IMG/VR virus record: IMGVR_UViG_3300042549_005375
Location: 1 to 25,149 of that record
Length of the DNA stretch: 25,149 bases
From: a virus
Strand: one strand, 5' to 3'
Made by a program: the position numbers and the translations under genes. Of the stretch, positions 5,856-25,149 are shown one piece after another. The notes under the pieces are model-generated. The model made no database searches, was not told where the DNA came from, and saw only the letters and a list, made by a program, of their open reading frames with translations. Positions within the stretch are counted from its first letter, which is position 1. Every line of letters begins with the position of its first letter.

Positions 5856-6143
5856 ATGAACGAACGAATTAAACTACTTGCTGAACAGGCTAACGCTTGG
5901 TATCCCGACGGGTATCCTAGTGGTGAAGGCGGCGATGCTGCATGGAAGGATCTTGTAATCTTTGAAAAAGCAGATTTGGAAAAGTTCGCAGAGTTGATTG
6001 TAGAGGAATGTGCGGAACTGATTGACAATAAAGTAATAATTACTGCGGCACAGACATATGATGAAGTTTTCGTGGCTAAGTTTGATACCAAAGAACTTTG
6101 TGCTAAACAAATTAGAGAACATTTTGGAGTTAATGAATGGTGA
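5856..6143 (+). CDS. Small phage protein, tandem paralogue 1 (MNERI/FAELIV family)
   Basis: A 95-residue protein with three conserved blocks shared by four genes here: MNERIKxLAEQA at the start, KFAELIVEECAELI in the middle, and IREHFGV at the end. The middle varies in length and sequence. I recall similar small proteins in many phages but no known function. AGAGG lies before the ATG. The last codon overlaps the GTG of the next small gene in a GTGA junction. Confidence 0.75.
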   Translation: MNERIKLLAEQANAWYPDGYPSGEGGDAAWKDLVIFEKADLEKFAELIVEECAELIDNKVIITAAQTYDEVFVAKFDTKELCAKQIREHFGVNEW

Positions 6144-6298: not shown

Positions 6299-6498
6299 AC
6301 AAGTTTGAAGAATGGTTTATGAATAGGATCATTCGGCGTGAGCTTCGTCAATGGGGCAATCCAGGAGAACATATTATCAATCTGTATAAGATGATTCGTA
6401 TAAAGTGTGAGCATGAATTCTACGAAGATAACACGGTTACGATGAATTCTAACTTGAGAGAATGGTTTGAAAAAAGTTTAAGGAATCCTACAAAATGA
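6295..6498 (+). CDS. Small basic helical protein of unknown function
   Basis: A 67-residue basic protein with Trp- and Arg-rich helical segments and no recognised motif. It starts in an ATGA overlap with the preceding gene, 8-10 bases after GGAG, and ends in an ATGA overlap with paralogue 2. Confidence 0.6.
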   Translation: MNKFEEWFMNRIIRRELRQWGNPGEHIINLYKMIRIKCEHEFYEDNTVTMNSNLREWFEKSLRNPTK

Positions 6499-6746
6499 AC
6501 GAACGAATTCGTGAACTTGTCAAGCAGGCAGGTGGTCATTATAATAGTGGCAATCAGCACAGTTGGCCACAATATACCATTGATGATCCTAAAAAGTTTG
6601 CCGAGTTGATTGTGAAAGAATGCATTGAAACTGTTGCCAAAAATGTGTATTCCGGGTTTACACCTAGTGATTTTTCCGACGGGGCAGATTTTGCATACGC
6701 TCAGGCTATCAGCGATATCAAAGAACATTTTGGAGTAGAAGAATGA
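6495..6746 (+). CDS. Small phage protein, tandem paralogue 2 (MNERI/FAELIV family)
   Basis: An 83-residue paralogue: MNERIRELVKQAG, KKFAELIVKECIE and DIKEHFGVEE are the conserved blocks. The C-terminal codons for FGVEE include GGAG, which serves as ribosome-binding site for paralogue 3, and the ATGA overlap couples the two. Function unknown. Confidence 0.75.
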   Translation: MNERIRELVKQAGGHYNSGNQHSWPQYTIDDPKKFAELIVKECIETVAKNVYSGFTPSDFSDGADFAYAQAISDIKEHFGVEE

Positions 6747-7009
6747 ACGAACGAATCAAGGAACTTGCTGAACAGGCAGGATTTCAATGGCTCATCGGTC
6801 TTAGACGCAATAATCCAATTATTACCGGCCAAGAGACAACCGCACAAGAGTTCGCCGAGTTGATTGTGCAGGAATGCGTTGACCTTTTGATGAAGCCAGA
6901 ATACGCAATGAACAACCCAACTCTTCTTTCGCCGTACAATGAGGGTTGGGCAAGTGGTAGACTTCTTGGTATTGAACATATTAAACAACATTTTGGAGTT
7001 AAAGAATGA
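6743..7009 (+). CDS. Small phage protein, tandem paralogue 3 (MNERI/FAELIV family)
   Basis: An 88-residue paralogue: MNERIKELAEQAGF, EFAELIVQECVDLL and HIKQHFGVKE. The variable middle (YAMNNPTLLSPYNEGWASGRLLG) differs from its neighbours. It overlaps genes on both sides by four bases, with GGAG embedded in the FGV codons of the preceding gene. Function unknown. Confidence 0.75.
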   Translation: MNERIKELAEQAGFQWLIGLRRNNPIITGQETTAQEFAELIVQECVDLLMKPEYAMNNPTLLSPYNEGWASGRLLGIEHIKQHFGVKE

Positions 7010-9130: not shown

Positions 9131-9901
9131 ATGACACCATATAGCAGGGCAAAGTTTATATCGAAATGGATTAAAGACTACGCCAAAAAAAACAAGATTA
9201 AAGAATTAGTGGTAGGAGTGTCGGGCGGCATCGACTCTGCGGTAGTTTCTACTTTATGTGCTGAAACAGGATTACCCGTAACTGCGGTTACATTGCCAAT
9301 TAGGCAAAATAAAAAACTACACAATCTTTCACTGGAACAAATCGATTTTCTTACAGAAAATTATGACAATGTGGTGCATGTAAATATTGACCTCACCACC
9401 GTGTTTAGTGCTTTTGAAAAAAAGACAGCTACTTTGGCCTATCATAGTAAATTGGCTTTTGCAAATAGCCGTAGCAGACTACGCATGATCACCTTGTACC
9501 AAATTGCACAAAGCATTGGCGGAATCGTAGTAGGTACAGGTAACAAGGTTGAAGATTTTGGTGTAGGTTTCTTTACCAAATACGGTGACGGTGGGGTAGA
9601 TATTTCACCTATTGGCGATTGTATGAAAACTGATGTTTGGGCTATGGGTGAGGCACTACATATACCAAAATCTATTATCGAAGCACCTCCTACAGATGGT
9701 CTTTGGGATGATAGTCGCACAGATGAAGATCAATTGGGCATGGCCTATTCTGACTTGGAGCGAGCCATGTGGTTGGACCAGTCAGGAGACCAGTCTGTGA
9801 CCAGTGCTGAGAAAGCAAATCTTAAAAAGTATCGAGCAATACGAGCCAGAAACTTGCACAAAATGAATCCTATTCCAGTTTGTGTAATTCCTAAGATTTG
9901 A
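9131..9901 (+). CDS. nadE: NH3-dependent NAD synthetase
   Basis: A 256-residue N-type ATP pyrophosphatase. It has the PP-loop SGGIDSA at 31-37, a conserved SRSRLRM block, then GTGNKVEDFGVGFFTKYGDGGVDISPIGDCMKTDV from about residue 137, which matches the NadE family closely. There is no glutaminase domain, so ammonia is the expected nitrogen donor. The enzyme amidates nicotinic acid adenine dinucleotide to NAD. The ribosome-binding site GGAG precedes the ATG. The TGA stop is part of the next -35 box. A phage copy could support NAD supply during infection or restore NAD after depletion by host defences (inference). Codon use is AT-rich, unlike the MoxR and VWA genes on either side. Confidence 0.93.
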   Translation: MTPYSRAKFISKWIKDYAKKNKIKELVVGVSGGIDSAVVSTLCAETGLPVTAVTLPIRQNKKLHNLSLEQIDFLTENYDNVVHVNIDLTTVFSAFEKKTATLAYHSKLAFANSRSRLRMITLYQIAQSIGGIVVGTGNKVEDFGVGFFTKYGDGGVDISPIGDCMKTDVWAMGEALHIPKSIIEAPPTDGLWDDSRTDEDQLGMAYSDLERAMWLDQSGDQSVTSAEKANLKKYRAIRARNLHKMNPIPVCVIPKI

Positions 9902-15084: not shown

Positions 15085-15800
15085 AAATATTAGTGACAGG
15101 TGGCTGTAGCTTTTCAGTAGCTAAATACGAATGTTGGCCGCATCATCTAGAAAACTACATAAAGCCTGAACAATCAATACATACTGGATTATCATGTCAA
15201 GGTAATGATTTGATTAGCAAGAAAGTTTTGCGACAGTTATTTGATATTGTTGAGAATCACAATACATCGGAATTATTAGTAGCTATAATGTGGTCAGGAC
15301 CTAACAGAAAAGCTATCTACATTGAAAACCCCCACAATGATTTGCCTAAAGTTAATGGTTGCCCAGATAATCCTACAGCGGTTGTAGAAAATTTGAATAA
15401 TTGGTATATACTAAATAGTAGAGACAGAGATATCAATCCAAAAGGACTAACAAATACATACTATAAATCTTTTTATTCTTTGGTAGAAAGTTATGTCAGT
15501 ACTTGTGAAAATATTCTGCGGGTTCAATGGTTCCTTCAAAAAGCTAATATAAATTATTTCATGACAACCTATACAGGTATGGTATTACCTAAAAAAATGC
15601 TAGAAATTTCAGAAGTAAATTATTTGTACAACCAAATAGATTTTAATTATTTTCTACCTGTTACAGGAGAATATGAATGGTGTATAGAACGATATGGGCC
15701 CTATCCCAATGAAGGTGATAATCACCCCACATCTCTTCAACATAAGAAGTTTACAGATGAAGTCATCATTCCATTTTTAAATAAGAAAAAATATATATGA
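15081..15800 (+). CDS. SGNH/GDSL-like hydrolase
   Basis: A 239-residue protein with a GGCSFS block at 7-12 (candidate nucleophile Ser), a CQGND segment near 39-43 (Gly and Asn of blocks II/III), and DNHPTSLQH near the C-terminus, typical of the Asp-x-x-His end of SGNH enzymes. These hydrolases act as esterases or acetyl-transfer enzymes on sugars and lipids. The next two genes encode nucleotide-sugar-type enzymes, so trimming or decorating a glycan is a reasonable guess (inference). Four-base overlaps on both sides. Confidence 0.75.
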   Translation: MKILVTGGCSFSVAKYECWPHHLENYIKPEQSIHTGLSCQGNDLISKKVLRQLFDIVENHNTSELLVAIMWSGPNRKAIYIENPHNDLPKVNGCPDNPTAVVENLNNWYILNSRDRDINPKGLTNTYYKSFYSLVESYVSTCENILRVQWFLQKANINYFMTTYTGMVLPKKMLEISEVNYLYNQIDFNYFLPVTGEYEWCIERYGPYPNEGDNHPTSLQHKKFTDEVIIPFLNKKKYI

Positions 15801-16777
15801 ACATTTTAGTAACAGGCGGATTAGGACTTATAGGACACAATGTAGTAGCCTATCTTGAAGAGTTAGGACATGAACCTGTTATATTAGATACTAAAACAGG
15901 ATATAATCAAACACCTCACGCTCATTTACACTATCTATTAGAATCCAGGTCGAAAAAAATCAAAACTAATCATGTGTATACATTTGATATAGTTACCAAA
16001 GGTGATATAGATTGGATAGATTGGATAATGAAAAAACATGACATAGAAATGGTAATTCATTTAGCAAGTTATCCTAGACAAAAATTAGTAAATATGGATC
16101 CTGCCAAAGCCAGTAGAGTTATGATTGAAGGTCTAATAAATGTGTTAGAAACAAGTAAGCGCAATAGAATTAAAAAGTTTGTATTCATTTCATCTTCTAT
16201 GGTATACGGTGATTTCAAAGATGATATTAAAGAAGATGCTATATGCAACCCTCAAGGACAATATGGTATCCTTAAATTAGCAGGAGAAATGCTAGTCAAG
16301 GACTATGGTAGAGCATCTGATTTAAAATATACTATTATTAGACCTAGTGCTGTATATGGACCATTAGATGTTGAAGATCGTGTAGTTGCAAAATTCATTT
16401 TAAATGCAATGGCTGATGGTGTGTTAAAAGTTAACGGTGCAAACGAATCATTAGATTTTACATATGTAGATGATGCTGCCAAGGGTATTGTAACCGCCGC
16501 GCTATCTGATAACACAAATAATAAAACTTATAACATCACAAAAAGTCATAGCCATACTTTACTTGATGCTGCCAAATTAGCAATTAAGATTGTGGGTAAA
16601 GGCAATATAGAAGTTAACGAAAAGGATTTAGATTTCCCCAGTCGTGGCGCACTAAATATTGATGCAGCTAAAAAAGACTTTGGCTATGATCCTAAAATCG
16701 ATGTAGAGGAAGGTTTTGAAAACTATTACAAGTGGCTACAAAATTCCCCATTTTGGGTTAGCAAGGCAATACGCTAA
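15797..16777 (+). CDS. NAD-dependent epimerase/dehydratase (extended SDR)
   Basis: A 326-residue extended short-chain dehydrogenase of the UDP-glucose epimerase group. It has a Rossmann fold with TGGLGLIG at 6-13, HLASYPRQ near 88-95, FISSSMVYG at 130-138 (catalytic Ser), and Y156-G-I-L-K160 (YxxxK). YTIIRPSAVYGPLD and FTYVDDAAKGI are the usual later blocks. Substrate unknown, probably a nucleotide sugar. The 3' end overlaps the next gene by 62 bases in another frame. Confidence 0.92.
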   Translation: MNILVTGGLGLIGHNVVAYLEELGHEPVILDTKTGYNQTPHAHLHYLLESRSKKIKTNHVYTFDIVTKGDIDWIDWIMKKHDIEMVIHLASYPRQKLVNMDPAKASRVMIEGLINVLETSKRNRIKKFVFISSSMVYGDFKDDIKEDAICNPQGQYGILKLAGEMLVKDYGRASDLKYTIIRPSAVYGPLDVEDRVVAKFILNAMADGVLKVNGANESLDFTYVDDAAKGIVTAALSDNTNNKTYNITKSHSHTLLDAAKLAIKIVGKGNIEVNEKDLDFPSRGALNIDAAKKDFGYDPKIDVEEGFENYYKWLQNSPFWVSKAIR

Positions 16778-17807
16778 ACTTAAAGATGAATTGTTAAGTG
16801 CCACAGACTCAGCACTTAAAGATGGTATTCTAGTCGGCGGCCATTACACAAGTACATTTGAAGATTGGCTAGGACAAAAAACAAAAACAAAATACGCACT
16901 TACCGTACATAGTGGCTCACAAGCATTAGAAATAATTGCTAGATTCAGAGCCCATCAATACGATAAAATTAGACCTAACGCCAGAAAAAAAGAAATAGCC
17001 TTAATACCTAATATTACATATCCTGCAACATTAAACTCATTCATTCAAGCAGGATGGAAAATAGAAATATGCGATACTAATAATAAAGGTATATTAGATT
17101 ATGAACAGGCTGAGGGAGGAAGCGAATACATATTATGTCTAGTGGGATTATATGGCGCTAAACCTCATCACGATAAAGAAGTAGCACATTCACATGTAAT
17201 AATTGATGGGGCACAGCATTGGTTAGTTGCTGACGGTAATGTAGGATTGGGTATGACAATTTCATTTGACCCTACTAAAAATTTACCTAGTAGTGGCAAT
17301 GGTGGTGCAATCGTAACGAATAATCAAGATTTATACAACTATGCTAGATTGTACCGAGATAATTGTAGGGGTAGTTATGAATTTTCAGGTACTAATAGTA
17401 AGATGAGTGAACAAGATTGTGCTCAAATTTTAGTCAGAACTAATTATATAGATGAATGGCAAAATCGTAGGAAGCAAATCAATAATTATTATTTGGATAG
17501 TTTTAAAAATCTACCTATAAAATGTCTTAGCGAAGACATAGAGGAACATTCATATCAAAAATTTGTTATCTATACAGAAAATAGAGATGCTTTAAAGAGC
17601 CATTTGAAAGATATGAGTATCGAAGCAAAAATTCACTATAAGCAAACATTGAGTGAATTGCCACTTGCTAGAAGCATGGTTAAACCTGATTTATTGAGCG
17701 TAAGTATAATGTTAGTGAGGGGCGTATTAAGCTTACCTATATATCCTGAGATTACTGATAGTGAAGTAGAAATAGTTTCAACAGCGATTAAAAACTTCTA
17801 TGTATAA
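16716..17807 (+). CDS. DegT/DnrJ/EryC1-type sugar aminotransferase
   Basis: A 363-residue PLP-dependent enzyme. KIPHFGLARQY near the N-terminus is the usual opening of the family; then come HSGSQALEI (phosphate-binding loop), IIDGAQHW with D165, and SFDPTKNL with the PLP lysine K188, followed by GNGGAIVTN. It probably aminates a keto-sugar nucleotide made with the neighbouring epimerase. The TTG at 16716 is preferred because the conserved KIPHFGL block begins within nine codons of it and AGAGGAAGG ends just two bases upstream. The resulting 62-base overlap with the epimerase gene is unusual. Confidence 0.88.
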   Translation: MKTITSGYKIPHFGLARQYAKLKDELLSATDSALKDGILVGGHYTSTFEDWLGQKTKTKYALTVHSGSQALEIIARFRAHQYDKIRPNARKKEIALIPNITYPATLNSFIQAGWKIEICDTNNKGILDYEQAEGGSEYILCLVGLYGAKPHHDKEVAHSHVIIDGAQHWLVADGNVGLGMTISFDPTKNLPSSGNGGAIVTNNQDLYNYARLYRDNCRGSYEFSGTNSKMSEQDCAQILVRTNYIDEWQNRRKQINNYYLDSFKNLPIKCLSEDIEEHSYQKFVIYTENRDALKSHLKDMSIEAKIHYKQTLSELPLARSMVKPDLLSVSIMLVRGVLSLPIYPEITDSEVEIVSTAIKNFYV

Positions 17808-19183: not shown

Positions 19184-19585
19184 ATGAGAGCCAGAGAATT
19201 TATTACAGAAAGTAAGTTAGAGGGTATGCATGATTACCTGCAAATGGCAGCAGATTCATTACCTCTAGCCTATATTATTCCTGAATTAAAAAATCAAGAT
19301 TTCTATGATTTATATAGATTTGGTGTTGCTATAGCAGATGTTAGAGGTACATCTGGTAATGACAATGTTCAAAATAAATTTAAGCCTGAATTTGAAGCTG
19401 AAAGTAGTTGGGGAGAAAATCAAATTGTAGTCAGTTATGATCCCAGTATTGGCAAAGTAATAGATGCTGCACTTAAGAAAGTTAATAAATCAGGTAAAAA
19501 ACAAGTAGCCAATACAAGTAGTGATGAAATGTCTGACACAAATAAGGGATCCCCGCTAAAACCTTTTAAGGGGTATAAACGATGA
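19184..19585 (+). CDS. Candidate internal head protein 1 with capsid-targeting N-terminus
   Basis: A 133-residue protein that starts MRAREFITES. This closely resembles the T4 capsid-targeting sequence MKTYQEFIAE, which directs internal proteins into the prohead and is cut after Glu by the prohead protease. Here ITE|S would be the cut. The C-terminal 16 residues (DTNKGSPLKPFKGYKR) are shared with the next gene. The middle is hydrophilic and unlike anything I know. It starts one base after the previous stop and overlaps the next gene by four bases. Confidence 0.75.
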   Translation: MRAREFITESKLEGMHDYLQMAADSLPLAYIIPELKNQDFYDLYRFGVAIADVRGTSGNDNVQNKFKPEFEAESSWGENQIVVSYDPSIGKVIDAALKKVNKSGKKQVANTSSDEMSDTNKGSPLKPFKGYKR

Positions 19586-19956
19586 GAGCCAGGGAGTTTA
19601 TGCTAGAGAGCAAAGTTGGTCAGATAACTCCACACCAGCAGCAATCTACCCGTGGGTTAAATGTTTTTTCAAAGAAGCTGGACAGTTATGATAGACTGTA
19701 TGATTTAAATCGTTTAATGATGGCTGTTGCCTGTAGTGATGGTGTTAACCCAATTGATATGAGTGCTGAAAGTTGGGTAGGAAAACATAATACAGCACAT
19801 GCTTATACTAAAGAAGAACAGGATATGCTTTCAATGGCATATAAGGCGGCGGGACTTGAAAATAAAGATTTAAATAATGGCGATTTGGATAGTGAAGAAC
19901 TTGCTGATACAAATAAACAAAGTCCTGTAAAACCGTTTAAGGGCTACAAAAAATAA
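19582..19956 (+). CDS. Candidate internal head protein 2 with capsid-targeting N-terminus
   Basis: A 124-residue protein starting MRAREFMLES, with the same targeting-like first six residues as its neighbour and a possible cut at MLE|S. It ends ADTNKQSPVKPFKGYKK, almost the same tail as the preceding protein, while the central 90 residues differ. The two genes look like a duplicated frame with exchanged cores, as in T4 internal proteins. It overlaps the preceding gene by four bases (ATGA). Confidence 0.75.
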   Translation: MRAREFMLESKVGQITPHQQQSTRGLNVFSKKLDSYDRLYDLNRLMMAVACSDGVNPIDMSAESWVGKHNTAHAYTKEEQDMLSMAYKAAGLENKDLNNGDLDSEELADTNKQSPVKPFKGYKK

Positions 19957-20751: not shown

Positions 20752-22305
20752 ATGAATAAAACTGGACAAACCTCTTTAATAAAAACACCTTATGTACAAA
20801 CGCAATTTCCTAACCAGAAGGCGTTAGATGACTTTATAAAGTGTTGTGATCCGGTTGACGGTTATCTATATTATATGGATAACTTCTTTATGATACAGCA
20901 TCCTACACAGGGTGCTATCAATTATCATCCCTACGAATATCAAAAACGATTAATCCACACATATCATGACTATCGCTATAGTATTAGCTTGATGCCTCGC
21001 CAGTCAGGAAAGTCAACTAGTGCTGCGGGTTATTTGTTATGGTATGCTATGTTTGTTCCTGATAGTACTATTCTAATAGCAGCACACAAATACACTGGTG
21101 CTCAAGAAATTATGCAGCGTATTAGATACGCTTATGAAAACTGTCCATACTGGATAAAAGCAGGTGTAACTACCTATAACAAAGGGTCGCTTGATTTTGA
21201 AAATGGTTCTCGTATAGTTTCAGCTACAACTACTGAAAACACAGGTCGTGGTATGTCTATTTCACTACTATACCTTGACGAGTTCGCATTCGTGAGACCC
21301 ACGATAGCTGAAATGTTTTGGACATCTATTACTCCTACATTGGCAACTGGTGGTAAAGCAATTATAACTTCAACACCAAATAGTGATGAGGATCAATTCG
21401 CGTTGATATGGAAAGGTGCAAACAAGTGCTTGGACGATTATGGTAATAAAACAGAATTAGGTATCAATGGATTTAGGGCATATAGAGCGTTTTGGGATGA
21501 ACATCCTGACCGTGACCAGAAATGGGCTGACTCAATGAAAGCACAATTAGGTGATGATAAGTTTGCCCGAGAAATAGATTGCGAATTCATTATCGCCGAC
21601 GAAACACTTATAAATCCCAACACACTTATACAACTTGAAGGTACTGAGCCTGTAAGCAAAATGGGACAAGTACGCTGGTATAAGAAGCCTGAAAAGGGAC
21701 ACATTTATTGTATTGGATTAGATCCTAGTCTAGGCACTGGTGGTGATCCTGCTGCTATTCAAATTTTTGAAGCCGATTCTACTACACAAGTGGGAGAATG
21801 GCGTCATAATAAAACTGATATACCTAATCAGATAAAGTTATTATCACAAATATGCAAACATATTGCTGATGAAACTAATGAACCCAATAATCTATATTAT
21901 TCAATAGAAAATAACTCAATAGGTGAAGCAGCACTAATATCATTAAATGAATACGGTGAGAGCAATATACCTGGTATATTTCTCAGCGAGGCAGGAAAAA
22001 AGCGCAAGGGGTTTAATACTACGCAGAAGGTTAAACTAACAGCATGTGCTAAATTCAAAACACTATTAGAAAGTAAAAAAATGTCATTAAATAGTAAAGC
22101 ACTGATAAGCGAGCTTAAAACATTCGTCGCCAGCGGAGGAAGTTATGCCGCCAAAATAGGTGATACTGATGACTTAGTAATGGCAAGTTTATTAATAATT
22201 AGAATGATGCAGCACTTAAGCGATTATCATGTAAATTTAGAGGAACATATGCGTGACCATGAAGAATATATGGCACCTTTACCATTCTTTGCTGTATATA
22301 ATTAA
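20752..22305 (+). CDS. terL: Terminase large subunit (T4 gp17 type)
   Basis: A 517-residue DNA-packaging motor. The ATPase has Walker A MPRQSGKST at 81-89 and Walker B LLYLDE at 172-177, followed by an ITSTPN coupling motif. The nuclease domain has D324 in IGLDPSLGTGGDP, E386 in SIENNSIGEA, and D473/D474 in GDTDDLVMA, the RNase-H-like acidic set. It is shorter than T4 gp17 (610 residues), mainly at the N-terminus. No small terminase is recognisable upstream. Unlike T4, where the tail sheath gene 18 follows, the next reading frame is the modular protein at 22326. Confidence 0.96.
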   Translation: MNKTGQTSLIKTPYVQTQFPNQKALDDFIKCCDPVDGYLYYMDNFFMIQHPTQGAINYHPYEYQKRLIHTYHDYRYSISLMPRQSGKSTSAAGYLLWYAMFVPDSTILIAAHKYTGAQEIMQRIRYAYENCPYWIKAGVTTYNKGSLDFENGSRIVSATTTENTGRGMSISLLYLDEFAFVRPTIAEMFWTSITPTLATGGKAIITSTPNSDEDQFALIWKGANKCLDDYGNKTELGINGFRAYRAFWDEHPDRDQKWADSMKAQLGDDKFAREIDCEFIIADETLINPNTLIQLEGTEPVSKMGQVRWYKKPEKGHIYCIGLDPSLGTGGDPAAIQIFEADSTTQVGEWRHNKTDIPNQIKLLSQICKHIADETNEPNNLYYSIENNSIGEAALISLNEYGESNIPGIFLSEAGKKRKGFNTTQKVKLTACAKFKTLLESKKMSLNSKALISELKTFVASGGSYAAKIGDTDDLVMASLLIIRMMQHLSDYHVNLEEHMRDHEEYMAPLPFFAVYN

Positions 22306-22311
22306 TATAAA

Positions 22312-22319
22312 GATAAATA
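22312..22319 (+). promoter_or_regulatory. Late promoter motif variant (GATAAATA)
   Basis: AAGATAAATACT, as at 18603-18614. The octamer ends six bases before the ATG at 22326, so transcription would begin at the start codon if it works as a T4-type late promoter. Confidence 0.6.
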
Positions 22320-22325
22320 CTCATT

Positions 22326-25149
22326 ATGCCAATCAATTCCGAATCATTAAACCGCAAACTTTATAACTTGCTAACAGTCAGAGGATATAATCCCAAACCC
22401 CTAGATGTTGAAGGCAAAGTCACCCCTGTACCAGAAGAATCAGCAGTAATGAAGTTTGACTTCGTTAAAGATGATAAAAATTATGGACAGGTTTGGATTT
22501 CTATCGATGGCTCTAAAACACTACAAGTATACTATGGTGATGCTGTAGCAGATAGTCCCAGCGACAAAACAAGGGACGCTTCATATGATGATACATGGAC
22601 TGGATTAATTAGGCATCTTAAGAATTGGGCACAACGCCGTCAATTGGGATTTGAACTTAAAAACGAAAATCATTTGGAATCAGATATGGCTAAAAGAAGT
22701 CACACAGCAAAGAAAGAAAAAATAAGTGAGGCGTCAACTGCTGGAAAGTCAAATAGTTCTTTTATAATTACAGCTAAAACAGCAGAGGGTGATACTAAAA
22801 AATACCGTGTTAAGGCACAAAGTCCTAATATGGCAAAAGAAAAGTTTACACAACATCATTCAATGGCTGAAATATTAGGTGTCAAAGAAGAAGGTGTGGC
22901 GGAAGGCTCGGACTACCAAGAACCTAAATTAGGAACTATAAAGGCTAATTTGATGCTCAGTAAAGAGCCTACAGTACAGGTTAAGATTTTCAAGCATAAT
23001 ACTCTTAGAGGCGATAGTTATTGGGTTACTAAAGAAGTACGCACTTTCAAAACAATGGATCAAGCGCAGGCTTATGTTGACCGAATAAACAACCAAGATG
23101 TAGCAGAAGGCTCGAAAAGAAAAAAGAAAAAAACTTCAAGATCCTTAGGCAGATATTTCTTTCCAGGTTATGGCTATTATGGTAGTGGAGAATCCGGCGA
23201 AAGTGGAGATGGTGGCGGTGGCGAAAGTTCTAATAGGGGTATGGCAGAGGGTCAAACTGGTGTAAGTGTTAAAAAATGGGCCGCGCAAGTTAGACAAGAA
23301 CATGGTGCTGATACTAAGTTTAGTAATGATAAGGTACATAACCGTGTAATAGCCCGTAAAGATAAAGAAATCGTGGGTTCATATGATCGTAAAGCTAATA
23401 ACGGTACTGTATTTTCTCCTAAGCAAGGTGTATCGGAAGGCTACTCACTAAAGAAAACTAATGTTGAAAAAACATTTGATCCAGGTGATCCCGATGAATA
23501 CACACAAGATGTCAATACAACATATACTGATTACGAAATCATCAATAATAAAACAGGTCAAGTAGTTGGAACTGCTAGTTGGACTACTAATGATTTTATG
23601 GGCCCAGGAGCACTAAAGATTACTATGAAGAATGGTGCTACTAGATGGTTAGATATTTGGGAACGAGAAAAGGGTAATCCACAAACAGCATTCAATCGTT
23701 TTGTTAAAGATCCCAAAACTGCTAAGAAGTATAAAGAACAAGATATAAAGGGTGTAACAGAAATGGACAATCGTACCTCAAGTGGTGATCGCAGAGAACA
23801 GCGTGCCAATAGCCCAGAAGAAAAAGCAAAGCGTGAAAAAGAACAACAAGCAAATCTAAAAAAAGTAAGTCCAAAAATGCGCGAAAAATTACGCTTACCT
23901 GAACCTAAAGAAGATATGGCAGAAGGTCAAGGAAAGAGTGGGCCACTTGGAAAAGACCGAATGGGTACTAATTGTGCGAAATGTAAAAAGGGAAATTATA
24001 CAGAAACGAGTATCCATGATGATTGGGACGGAGTATTACATTGTTCCAATTCTAAGTGTAATCATGAAGTCAATCGTTGGCCAGGAAAGGATAAAAAGCA
24101 AGATATGGCAGAAGGCACTGAAAGTATTCTTGCTCGTGGCACAGAGGTAACTGTTCCACACAGAGGCAAAATGGTGCCAGGCAAAATTCTTAGATATGTT
24201 GCTGGTAAAGGTGGCTCTTCAGATGCTTATGTGGTTGATATTGGTGAGTATGAGTCCCTGACTGTACCAACATTTAATGTTAAAACTCAAGGCATGTCGG
24301 AAGGCTCAGAAGAAAAAGATCCAGTTTGGAATAAAGGCACACCAATGCCAAAAGATTATACTTGTCATTGTGGTATCGCCGTTCATCCTAGCGTTCGTAA
24401 CCCCAAAGCAATTCATATACCAGATTGCCCTTATGCTAAGAAGCAAGATATGGCAGAAGGCACTGAGGACTCAACTCAAGTATTAAGTGATATTGTTGCT
24501 AACGAAGATTTTGATGCATTGTATGACTTAATGTCATCTAATACTGAAGCAGGCAAAATTGTTCAACGAATGTATAACGATGTTTCTGGTGAAGAAGGCT
24601 TGCATCCAGATGATGATTTTGAACAGATTCTAAACCGTGTGTTTGATCACCTGTCACAGGATTATGGTCAGCAAGGTATGGCAGAAGGCTTCGGTGATGT
24701 TGTAAAAGGTATCAAGCGTTCTATCAAAGGCAAAGAACATCCAGATGTTGTTGCTGCCAAACATCTAGGTAGAGCATTGGGACACTATAATCAAGGCGAT
24801 ATGGAATTAGGCAACAAAGAAGAAAAGCGTTACATAAAGACTAGGGATATGCATCTAAAAGCAAAAGGTGTGGCGGAAGGCTCCGAAAAAGTTCATCTAA
24901 AAACACCTAAACATGGACTTGCCGATCATCCAGGTAGAGATACTGGTATAAGCCTAAGAGCATTCGCTCAAACACCAGAACAAAATCGTTGCCCAAAATG
25001 CAACAGTCTGTTCAAGAATCATGATCAGCAAGGTGTGGCGGAAGGCTCGGATCAACATCCAGGCGTACCGACTAGTAGAGATGAGTTATATCACCATCAT
25101 TTATCTGCCGCCAAAATCTCTAAAGGCAGAGCCAAGGAACATCATCTAC
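22326..25149 (+). CDS. Very long modular protein with repeated [MV][AS]EG motifs, candidate prohead polyprotein (3' end beyond window)
   Basis: The frame stays open for 941 codons to the window edge. After an N-terminal domain of about 135 residues ending ISE|A, it is a chain of 47-108-residue modules. The motif copies start at residues 191, 259, 306, 369, 477 (VTEM, degenerate), 531, 594, 657, 709, 785, 849 and 904. Modules are unrelated: a Lys- and Gly-rich one (262-308), a charged helix (480-533), a zinc ribbon with CAKC and CSNSKC (534-596), an SH3/KOW-like beta module (597-659), a CHC/H/C module (660-711), an acidic helix (712-787), a basic helix (788-851) and a CPKC module (852-906). 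The motif fits the hydrophobic-x-Glu cut site of T4-type prohead proteases. Its place directly after terL, with a late promoter motif, fits a head role. Alternatively the motif is only a linker. Confidence 0.8.
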   Translation, partial: MPINSESLNRKLYNLLTVRGYNPKPLDVEGKVTPVPEESAVMKFDFVKDDKNYGQVWISIDGSKTLQVYYGDAVADSPSDKTRDASYDDTWTGLIRHLKNWAQRRQLGFELKNENHLESDMAKRSHTAKKEKISEASTAGKSNSSFIITAKTAEGDTKKYRVKAQSPNMAKEKFTQHHSMAEILGVKEEGVAEGSDYQEPKLGTIKANLMLSKEPTVQVKIFKHNTLRGDSYWVTKEVRTFKTMDQAQAYVDRINNQDVAEGSKRKKKKTSRSLGRYFFPGYGYYGSGESGESGDGGGGESSNRGMAEGQTGVSVKKWAAQVRQEHGADTKFSNDKVHNRVIARKDKEIVGSYDRKANNGTVFSPKQGVSEGYSLKKTNVEKTFDPGDPDEYTQDVNTTYTDYEIINNKTGQVVGTASWTTNDFMGPGALKITMKNGATRWLDIWEREKGNPQTAFNRFVKDPKTAKKYKEQDIKGVTEMDNRTSSGDRREQRANSPEEKAKREKEQQANLKKVSPKMREKLRLPEPKEDMAEGQGKSGPLGKDRMGTNCAKCKKGNYTETSIHDDWDGVLHCSNSKCNHEVNRWPGKDKKQDMAEGTESILARGTEVTVPHRGKMVPGKILRYVAGKGGSSDAYVVDIGEYESLTVPTFNVKTQGMSEGSEEKDPVWNKGTPMPKDYTCHCGIAVHPSVRNPKAIHIPDCPYAKKQDMAEGTEDSTQVLSDIVANEDFDALYDLMSSNTEAGKIVQRMYNDVSGEEGLHPDDDFEQILNRVFDHLSQDYGQQGMAEGFGDVVKGIKRSIKGKEHPDVVAAKHLGRALGHYNQGDMELGNKEEKRYIKTRDMHLKAKGVAEGSEKVHLKTPKHGLADHPGRDTGISLRAFAQTPEQNRCPKCNSLFKNHDQQGVAEGSDQHPGVPTSRDELYHHHLSAAKISKGRAKEHHL
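22896..25049 (+). repeat. Dispersed [MV][AS]EG-coding repeats (about 12-27 bp each)
   Basis: Copies start at 22896, 23100, 23241, 23430, 23754 (degenerate), 23916, 24105, 24294, 24450, 24678, 24870 and 25035. Most copies use the same GAA-GGC codons. The copies starting 22896, 24870 and 25035 share GTGGCGGAAGGCTC, and those at 24105 and 24450 share about 26 bases. The DNA-level match suggests that recombination at these points spreads or swaps modules. Confidence 0.85.

Follow-up and report, generated by a model that had tools for sequence, protein, structure and literature searches.

A modular reading frame behind the terminase gene of a T4-superfamily phage: a probable head-targeted polyprotein recomposed by cassette exchange

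Results

Organisation of the locus

The window, i.e. the whole stretch of DNA analysed, is the 25,149-base virus fragment IMGVR_UViG_3300042549_005375. It ends inside a long reading frame that starts with ATG at position 22326 and remains open to the last base, and hence the C-terminus of the product and the 3' end of the gene are missing. The length of at least 941 codons agrees with that reported in a preliminary description made from the letters of this DNA. The frame directly follows the gene for the terminase large subunit (TerL), which is 48–50% identical to TerL of Phosso and PA5oct. Genes for a protease and a capsid protein are absent from the window, which is a fragment. The features at this end of the window are as follows; here and below, an arrow marks the site of cutting, which is predicted for the proteins of this study.

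19184 to 19585, + strand: small protein starting MRAREFITE↓S, which resembles the T4 IPII/IPIII targeting peptide MKTYQEFIAE↓A
19582 to 19956, + strand: second small protein of the MRAREF type, MRAREFMLE↓S
20752 to 22305, + strand: TerL of the T4 superfamily; among cultured phages, nearest to TerL of the jumbo phages Phosso and PA5oct
22313 to 22319, + strand: ATAAATA, resembling a T4-type late promoter, 13 nt before the start codon
22326 to 25149, + strand: modular polyprotein gene

Sequences of the late-promoter type are weakly enriched ahead of polyproteins (23/116, as compared with 118/936 controls; p=0.04) and are taken as weak evidence. In related contigs a common order is kept, namely MRAREF genes, TerL, a chain with the same N-terminal domain, and SSB and UvsX/RecA genes (read from sequence), and the annotation of Phosso has RecA at the corresponding place.

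The two tandem genes of the MRAREF(I/M)xE↓S type (19184–19585 and 19582–19956) have a common C-terminal stretch, DTNKxSPxKPFKGYK, and two related contigs (L125 and L127) carry three MRAREF genes each at the same place. Elsewhere in the window, paralogous small proteins of the form MNERIxxLxxQA...FAELIVxEC...HFGV are encoded at 5856–6143, 6495–6746 and 6743–7009. Further genes are for proteins resembling NAD synthetase (9131–9901, assigned by eye), nucleotide-sugar epimerase (15797–16777) and aminotransferase (16716–17807), the latter two being PHROG matches.

Modules and seams of the polyprotein

The motif [GD][VM][AS]EG occurs 11 times in the chain, at residues 190, 258, 305, 368, 530, 593, 656, 708, 784, 848 and 903, and is absent from every other ORF of the window. 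In 5000 shuffles of the protein itself, the number of motifs averaged 0.011 and never exceeded 2, by which an origin as a chance or low-complexity repeat was rejected. The residue preceding [GD] is K or Q in 8/11 motifs, and S or T follows the motif Gly in 7/11. Hence, of the form [KQ][GD][MV][AS]EG[ST] given in the preliminary description, the core stands and the flanks were too strict.

Two weaker sites are also present. KISE135↓AS forms the end of the N-terminal domain, in agreement with the KISEAS end originally assigned to the first domain. KGVTE479↓M was counted as a true boundary because it aligns with the ends of homologous modules in L092 and L180, which are GVAE↓G and GVAE↓A, respectively. 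The chain has 13 predicted sites and 14 modules in total, and the internal modules are of 47–108 aa, as had been described. A modular frame with a repeated motif is thus confirmed. The modules are:

22326 to 22730, + strand: module 1, N-terminal domain (residues 1–135), ending KISE↓AS; homologues in L086, L103, L108, L125, L127 and others
22731 to 22904, + strand: module 2, 58 aa; a module of L006 has the same GVAE↓G end and 67% identity; also in L041
22905 to 23108, + strand: module 3, 68 aa; homologue in L260
23109 to 23249, + strand: module 4, 47 aa, Lys-rich at the start, then Gly/Ser-rich, net charge +4
23250 to 23438, + strand: module 5, 63 aa, net charge +5; homologues in L213 and L110
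23439 to 23762, + strand: module 6, 108 aa, ending KGVTE↓M; homologues in L092 and L180, with 81% identity
23763 to 23924, + strand: module 7, 54 aa, highly charged
23925 to 24113, + strand: module 8, 63 aa, zinc-ribbon-like CxxC...C...C; homologues in L082 and L078
24114 to 24302, + strand: module 9, 63 aa; homologue in L094
24303 to 24458, + strand: module 10, 52 aa, CxC...C
24459 to 24686, + strand: module 11, 76 aa, acidic, net charge -15; homologues in L197 and L037
24687 to 24878, + strand: module 12, 64 aa, net charge +5; homologues in L132, L133 and L042, in other contexts
24879 to 25043, + strand: module 13, 55 aa, CxxC; homologue in L134
25044 to 25149, + strand: module 14, truncated where the contig stops; its counterpart in L134 is 95% identical and extends further

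The seams and predicted cuts between them are:

22728 to 22730, + strand: predicted cut after Glu135, KISE↓AS
22887 to 22907, + strand: seam EEGVAE↓G
23091 to 23111, + strand: seam NQDVAE↓G
23232 to 23252, + strand: seam NRGMAE↓G
23421 to 23441, + strand: seam KQGVSE↓G
23760 to 23762, + strand: predicted cut after Glu479, KGVTE↓M; homologues confirm this boundary
23907 to 23927, + strand: seam KEDMAE↓G
24096 to 24116, + strand: seam KQDMAE↓G
24285 to 24305, + strand: seam TQGMSE↓G
24441 to 24461, + strand: seam KQDMAE↓G
24669 to 24689, + strand: seam QQGMAE↓G
24861 to 24881, + strand: seam AKGVAE↓G
25026 to 25046, + strand: seam QQGVAE↓G, with a single mismatch against the consensus

Clear homologues elsewhere, on other phage contigs and in other contexts, were found for 11/14 modules; none was found for modules 7 and 10, and the match of module 4 is unconvincing. 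The window chain gave no match in Pfam or PHROG. In three of its modules, pairs or triplets of Cys suggest zinc binding. Most modules are neutral or basic, and a single one is strongly acidic. Related phages have homologues of module 1 at the corresponding position, after TerL. The predicted fold of module 1 is compact (pLDDT 80.7), and the tail beyond residue 138 is disordered. A module common among relatives is predicted to adopt a small β-β-β-β-α fold (pLDDT 76), its seam lying in a tail that is disordered in the model. Fold searches with these two models gave no significant match to solved folds.

Known domains are rare in the modules of relatives and include GNAT acetyltransferases, ParB-like domains and cytidine deaminase; one chain (L083) combines a T7 gp0.7-like kinase with an acetyltransferase. 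Among 55 chains, Pfam gave ParB and acetyltransferase matches for a few; none of the matches was to a peptidase, and hence none to an internal MPTase of the kind that marks polyvalent proteins.

Related chains and exchange of cassettes

A search with a 16-nt motif gave at least 120 viral stretches, to which a second scan added. The resulting collection comprises at least 158 non-redundant ORFs that contain the motif twice or more, from at least 144 loci. The number of motifs per chain reaches 11, the window chain having the most among these ORFs. In three large records the GVAEG-type motif is confined to one or two chains per genome and is not scattered.

Cutting the chains at the motifs gave 694 modules, i.e. 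about 700 candidates, with 99 families of two or more members. Among 125 pairs of homologous internal modules from different chains, both neighbours are different in 121 and alike in none, which bears out the expectation of the preliminary description that the motifs would be kept while the modules change in homologous frames. In 16 near-identical module pairs, DNA identity usually ends 14–25 nt to the left, in the seam, and 1–8 nt to the right of the module; in a few of them it extends through the neighbouring cassette on one side. A tandem duplicate of one 201-nt cassette is present in L190 (199/201 nt identical). Since identity usually stops at the seams and module orders are new, the modules move as in-frame cassettes. 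At the level of sequence, these comparisons demonstrate the modularity of the chains, their common seam and the exchange of cassettes at the seams.

The whole window chain had no match in cultured phages by tblastn. Other chains matched mainly T4-like cyanophages among the matches listed, through their C-terminal modules alone. The window chain and further cassette chains, used as protein queries against 50,697 phage records, gave no seam-carrying host-phage pair. Cyanophages were rejected as cultured hosts of the full system because only terminal modules are common and no GVAEG seams occur in the cyanophage sequences read. The cyanophage proteins with the C-terminal modules of the chains (KSRYKVWPSAYASGALVKCRK and CWKGYKxxGMKKKG) are encoded near terminase genes (L122:4750–6525, which is S-RIM8 gp114; L123:2954–4468; L124:3959–4948).

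The N-terminal domain of the window alone, used as the query, found nothing, and the version from L108 found orthologues. Those in L127 and L130 keep the N-terminal domain and have no GVAEG cassettes; glycine-zipper-like stretches replace these (L127:7989–10445; L130:1–2478).

Conservation of the seam as DNA

The seam is conserved at the DNA level, with a nucleotide consensus of approximately AAGCAAGGTGTGGCGGAAGGC. Codon bias was first estimated from an exact 16-mer search, which carries a retrieval bias, and the estimate was then repeated with the synonymous bases free. With all of them free, 118 copies in multi-motif ORFs have CAA in 117, GGT in 112, GTG in 103, GCG in 106 and GAA in 110, GCG accounting for 7% of Ala codons in an earlier set of cassette ORFs. 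All 398 seam copies with up to three mismatches are in the KQGVAEG reading frame, and 257 Gb of bacterial and archaeal genomes contained just two matches, each a lone copy outside any array. On both counts, we rejected a mobile DNA repeat that only happens to lie within genes. As the copies lie in one frame and synonymous sites are conserved, the seam is a coding DNA joint. Part of the motif repetition has a DNA-level cause, since conservation extends to the DNA of the seam, at which cassettes are exchanged. Departures from the consensus are mostly G to A (154/285 changes, positions 7–18).

The prevalence of GTG, and of Met (ATG) as the main alternative amino acid at this codon, would also be expected if the seams were internal translation starts, the modules being made from nested starts or being remnants of once separate genes. 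However, inspection by eye revealed no ribosome-binding site at a usable distance, the second commonest codon is GTA (24/329), which is not a start, and the strong bias for GGT and GCG would be left unexplained. We consider internal starts highly improbable.

Constraint on hydrophobic-x-Glu

Variation of the seam as protein was assessed by a de-biased count, in which the codon tested was excluded from the match and two other motifs were required in the ORF. Glu occupies P1 in 307/315 (97.5%), including 25 synonymous GAG codons, and P3 is hydrophobic in 328/329 (99.7%). The other positions are freer, with Gly in 86% at P4, Ala in 85% at P2, Gly in 71% at P1' and Gln in 70% at P5. Thus, the motif Glu does not vary freely, a point on which the preliminary description had made its reading depend. 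T4 gp21 cuts after L/I-x-E (PMC9026906). As P3 and P1 are held while P4, P2 and P1' vary, the seam fits the hydrophobic-x-Glu rule of T4 gp21-type proteases. The I/L-x-E rule invoked originally therefore holds as hydrophobic-x-Glu and not in its P3 residue, which is mostly V or M rather than L or I (V/M-A-E↓G). The pattern among the copies demonstrates constraint on P3 and P1 at the protein level.

Conservation of synonymous positions and cassette exchange at the seam require no protease, and DNA-level conservation could explain much of the sameness of the motif without one. The main alternative to a cut precursor is, hence, an uncut multidomain virion protein whose seams are flexible linkers, their DNA being kept as a recombination joint. 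A pure DNA joint should drift evenly, yet P1 and P3 are nearly invariant in class while P4, P2 and P1' drift, and the seam Glu shifts from GAA to GAG synonymously 25 times. Moreover, hydrophobic-x-Glu also occurs at boundaries that have no GVAEG seam: where homology starts away from GVAEG-like seams, [LIVM]xE is found in 30%, as compared with 19% at random positions. The P1/P3 pattern in particular speaks against an uncut protein, which we judge to be unlikely.

At the N-terminus, hydrophobic-x-Glu is present at residues 7–17 in 70/117 chains with a 5' end, as compared with 25.5% of control ORFs (p=3e-13), and the N-terminal hydrophobic-x-E peptides of many chains resemble the T4 peptide. The window chain has no such short capsid-targeting sequence (CTS) and starts with the 135-aa domain ending ISE↓A. 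Depletion of [LI]xE inside modules (0.77, as compared with 1.20 in controls) was discarded as evidence for a protease, as the frame-shifted [LI]xxE is depleted likewise (0.73) and the effect is nonspecific.

Head genes in related records

A gp23-type capsid protein was found in 8/34 records searched, and an S77 (gp21-type) protease in the same 8 records. A complete chain of 816 aa (L160:15598–18045) is encoded in a record together with an S77 protease (L135). The capsid proteins of these records have a conserved L-x-E site followed by N or S (L-x-E↓N/S). Three head clusters contain genes for a portal, core, protease, scaffold-like protein and capsid protein in the T4 order, the roles being assigned partly by reading. 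Gene content shows a head of the gp21/gp23 type in relatives, and the T4-like setting proposed in the preliminary description was borne out by these records and by the T4-superfamily TerL.

The orthologue in L125 matches the PHROG 'virion structural protein'. PA5oct gp278, encoded close behind TerL, is annotated as a virion protein by ESI-MS/MS; it matches residues 120–309 of the L125 orthologue, which lie largely beyond the window's own N-terminal domain.

A head precursor need not deliver its products. The T4 core proteins are cut into several, mostly removed fragments (PMC9026906), and the chain could likewise be a scaffold-like core protein that is chopped and whose pieces leave the head, like gp22, gp67 and gp68 of T4, with no job in the new host cell. 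Spacer peptides would have no need of the enzyme-like modules of some relatives (GNAT, ParB, cytidine deaminase and gp0.7-like kinase), and the three head clusters have a separate gp22-like scaffold candidate between the protease and capsid genes. A disposable core is thus regarded as quite improbable, though less so than internal starts.

Discussion

Proposed processing of the chain

The best explanation, to which we assign a probability of about 0.7, is that the chain is a cut, head-targeted precursor polyprotein of a T4-superfamily phage that is recomposed by cassette exchange. An N-terminal head-targeting part, here the domain conserved after TerL and in many relatives a short peptide like the T4 CTS, would bring the string of modules into the core of the prohead, where the gp21-type protease would then cut after Glu in the hydrophobic-x-Glu↓G seams. 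The proteins of 5–12 kDa thus freed would remain in the head until they pass into the cell together with the DNA, like the T4 internal proteins. Through seam-to-seam recombination, entire modules would be gained, lost, duplicated or swapped in frame, and every incoming module would bring a cutting site of its own. We infer cutting, packaging or retention in the head, injection and a recombination enzyme from these patterns, and the interpretation in the preliminary description is thus partly supported. There is about an even chance that the chain is a protein-cassette array in the full sense, in which seams of 18–21 nt are both the exchange joint and the head-protease site and exchanges yield new co-packaged, co-injected sets.

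Comparison with known systems

The T4 proteins IPI–IPIII and Alt have a short N-terminal CTS with hydrophobic-x-Glu, are cut by gp21 after Glu in the prohead and are ejected with the DNA; the IPs are of about 8, 10 and 20 kDa (PMC9026906). The cassette chains would share head targeting, cutting at Glu, small products and ejection, all predicted from their sequences. Whereas each T4 IP has its own gene and its own CTS, a cassette chain has many modules behind one N-terminus with sites between them, the window frame alone holding 14.

Polyvalent proteins resemble the chains in being long strings of unrelated domains that are mosaic between genomes, and ParB-like domains are common to both (PMC5512222). 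They are thought to be injected and to act early, and self-processing by an internal MPTase has been proposed (Iyer et al. 2017, PMC5512222). In contrast, the sites in cassette chains fit a head protease acting in trans, and the modules are mostly tiny and separated by a common seam. A short DNA repeat also enables module exchange in the PeSL shuffling of T4-type phages (Arbiol 2010; Comeau 2014, cited in PMC4503421). PeSLs are promoter/stem-loop elements between genes, unlike the seam, which is coding, in frame, within one gene and likely a protease site.

T4 gp22 and gp67 are, like the predicted chain, single head precursors with several Glu sites cut by gp21 in the prohead; unlike the cassette chains, they are scaffold, and their fragments mostly leave. 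To our knowledge, neither has exchangeable folded modules or a DNA seam, and we know of no tailed phage with many-module exchangeable polyproteins cut by a head protease. Open-access papers contained no GVAEG phage motif and no phage head polyprotein of the cassette kind, in line with the preliminary description, whose author knew of no described system of this kind. The cutting principle is that of T4, and the cassette chain with a coding seam appears to be undescribed.

If cutting is confirmed, the chains would represent a set of exchangeable small proteins that the phage carries in its head. Phages could then quickly change the proteins delivered at the very start of infection, the time at which host defences act, and one short sequence would serve as DNA recombination joint and protease site. 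The seam also offers a simple way to collect such modules by sequence, in their hundreds.

At the N-termini of four chains (L042, L009, L022 and L064), a segment (T)SGxVA(T/S)VxxPxG resembles the capsid proteins in L147–L154 just after their L-x-E site (AGxxxAGN(V/I)ATLNRVILP). This segment is perhaps a head-binding peptide common to chains and capsid proteins.
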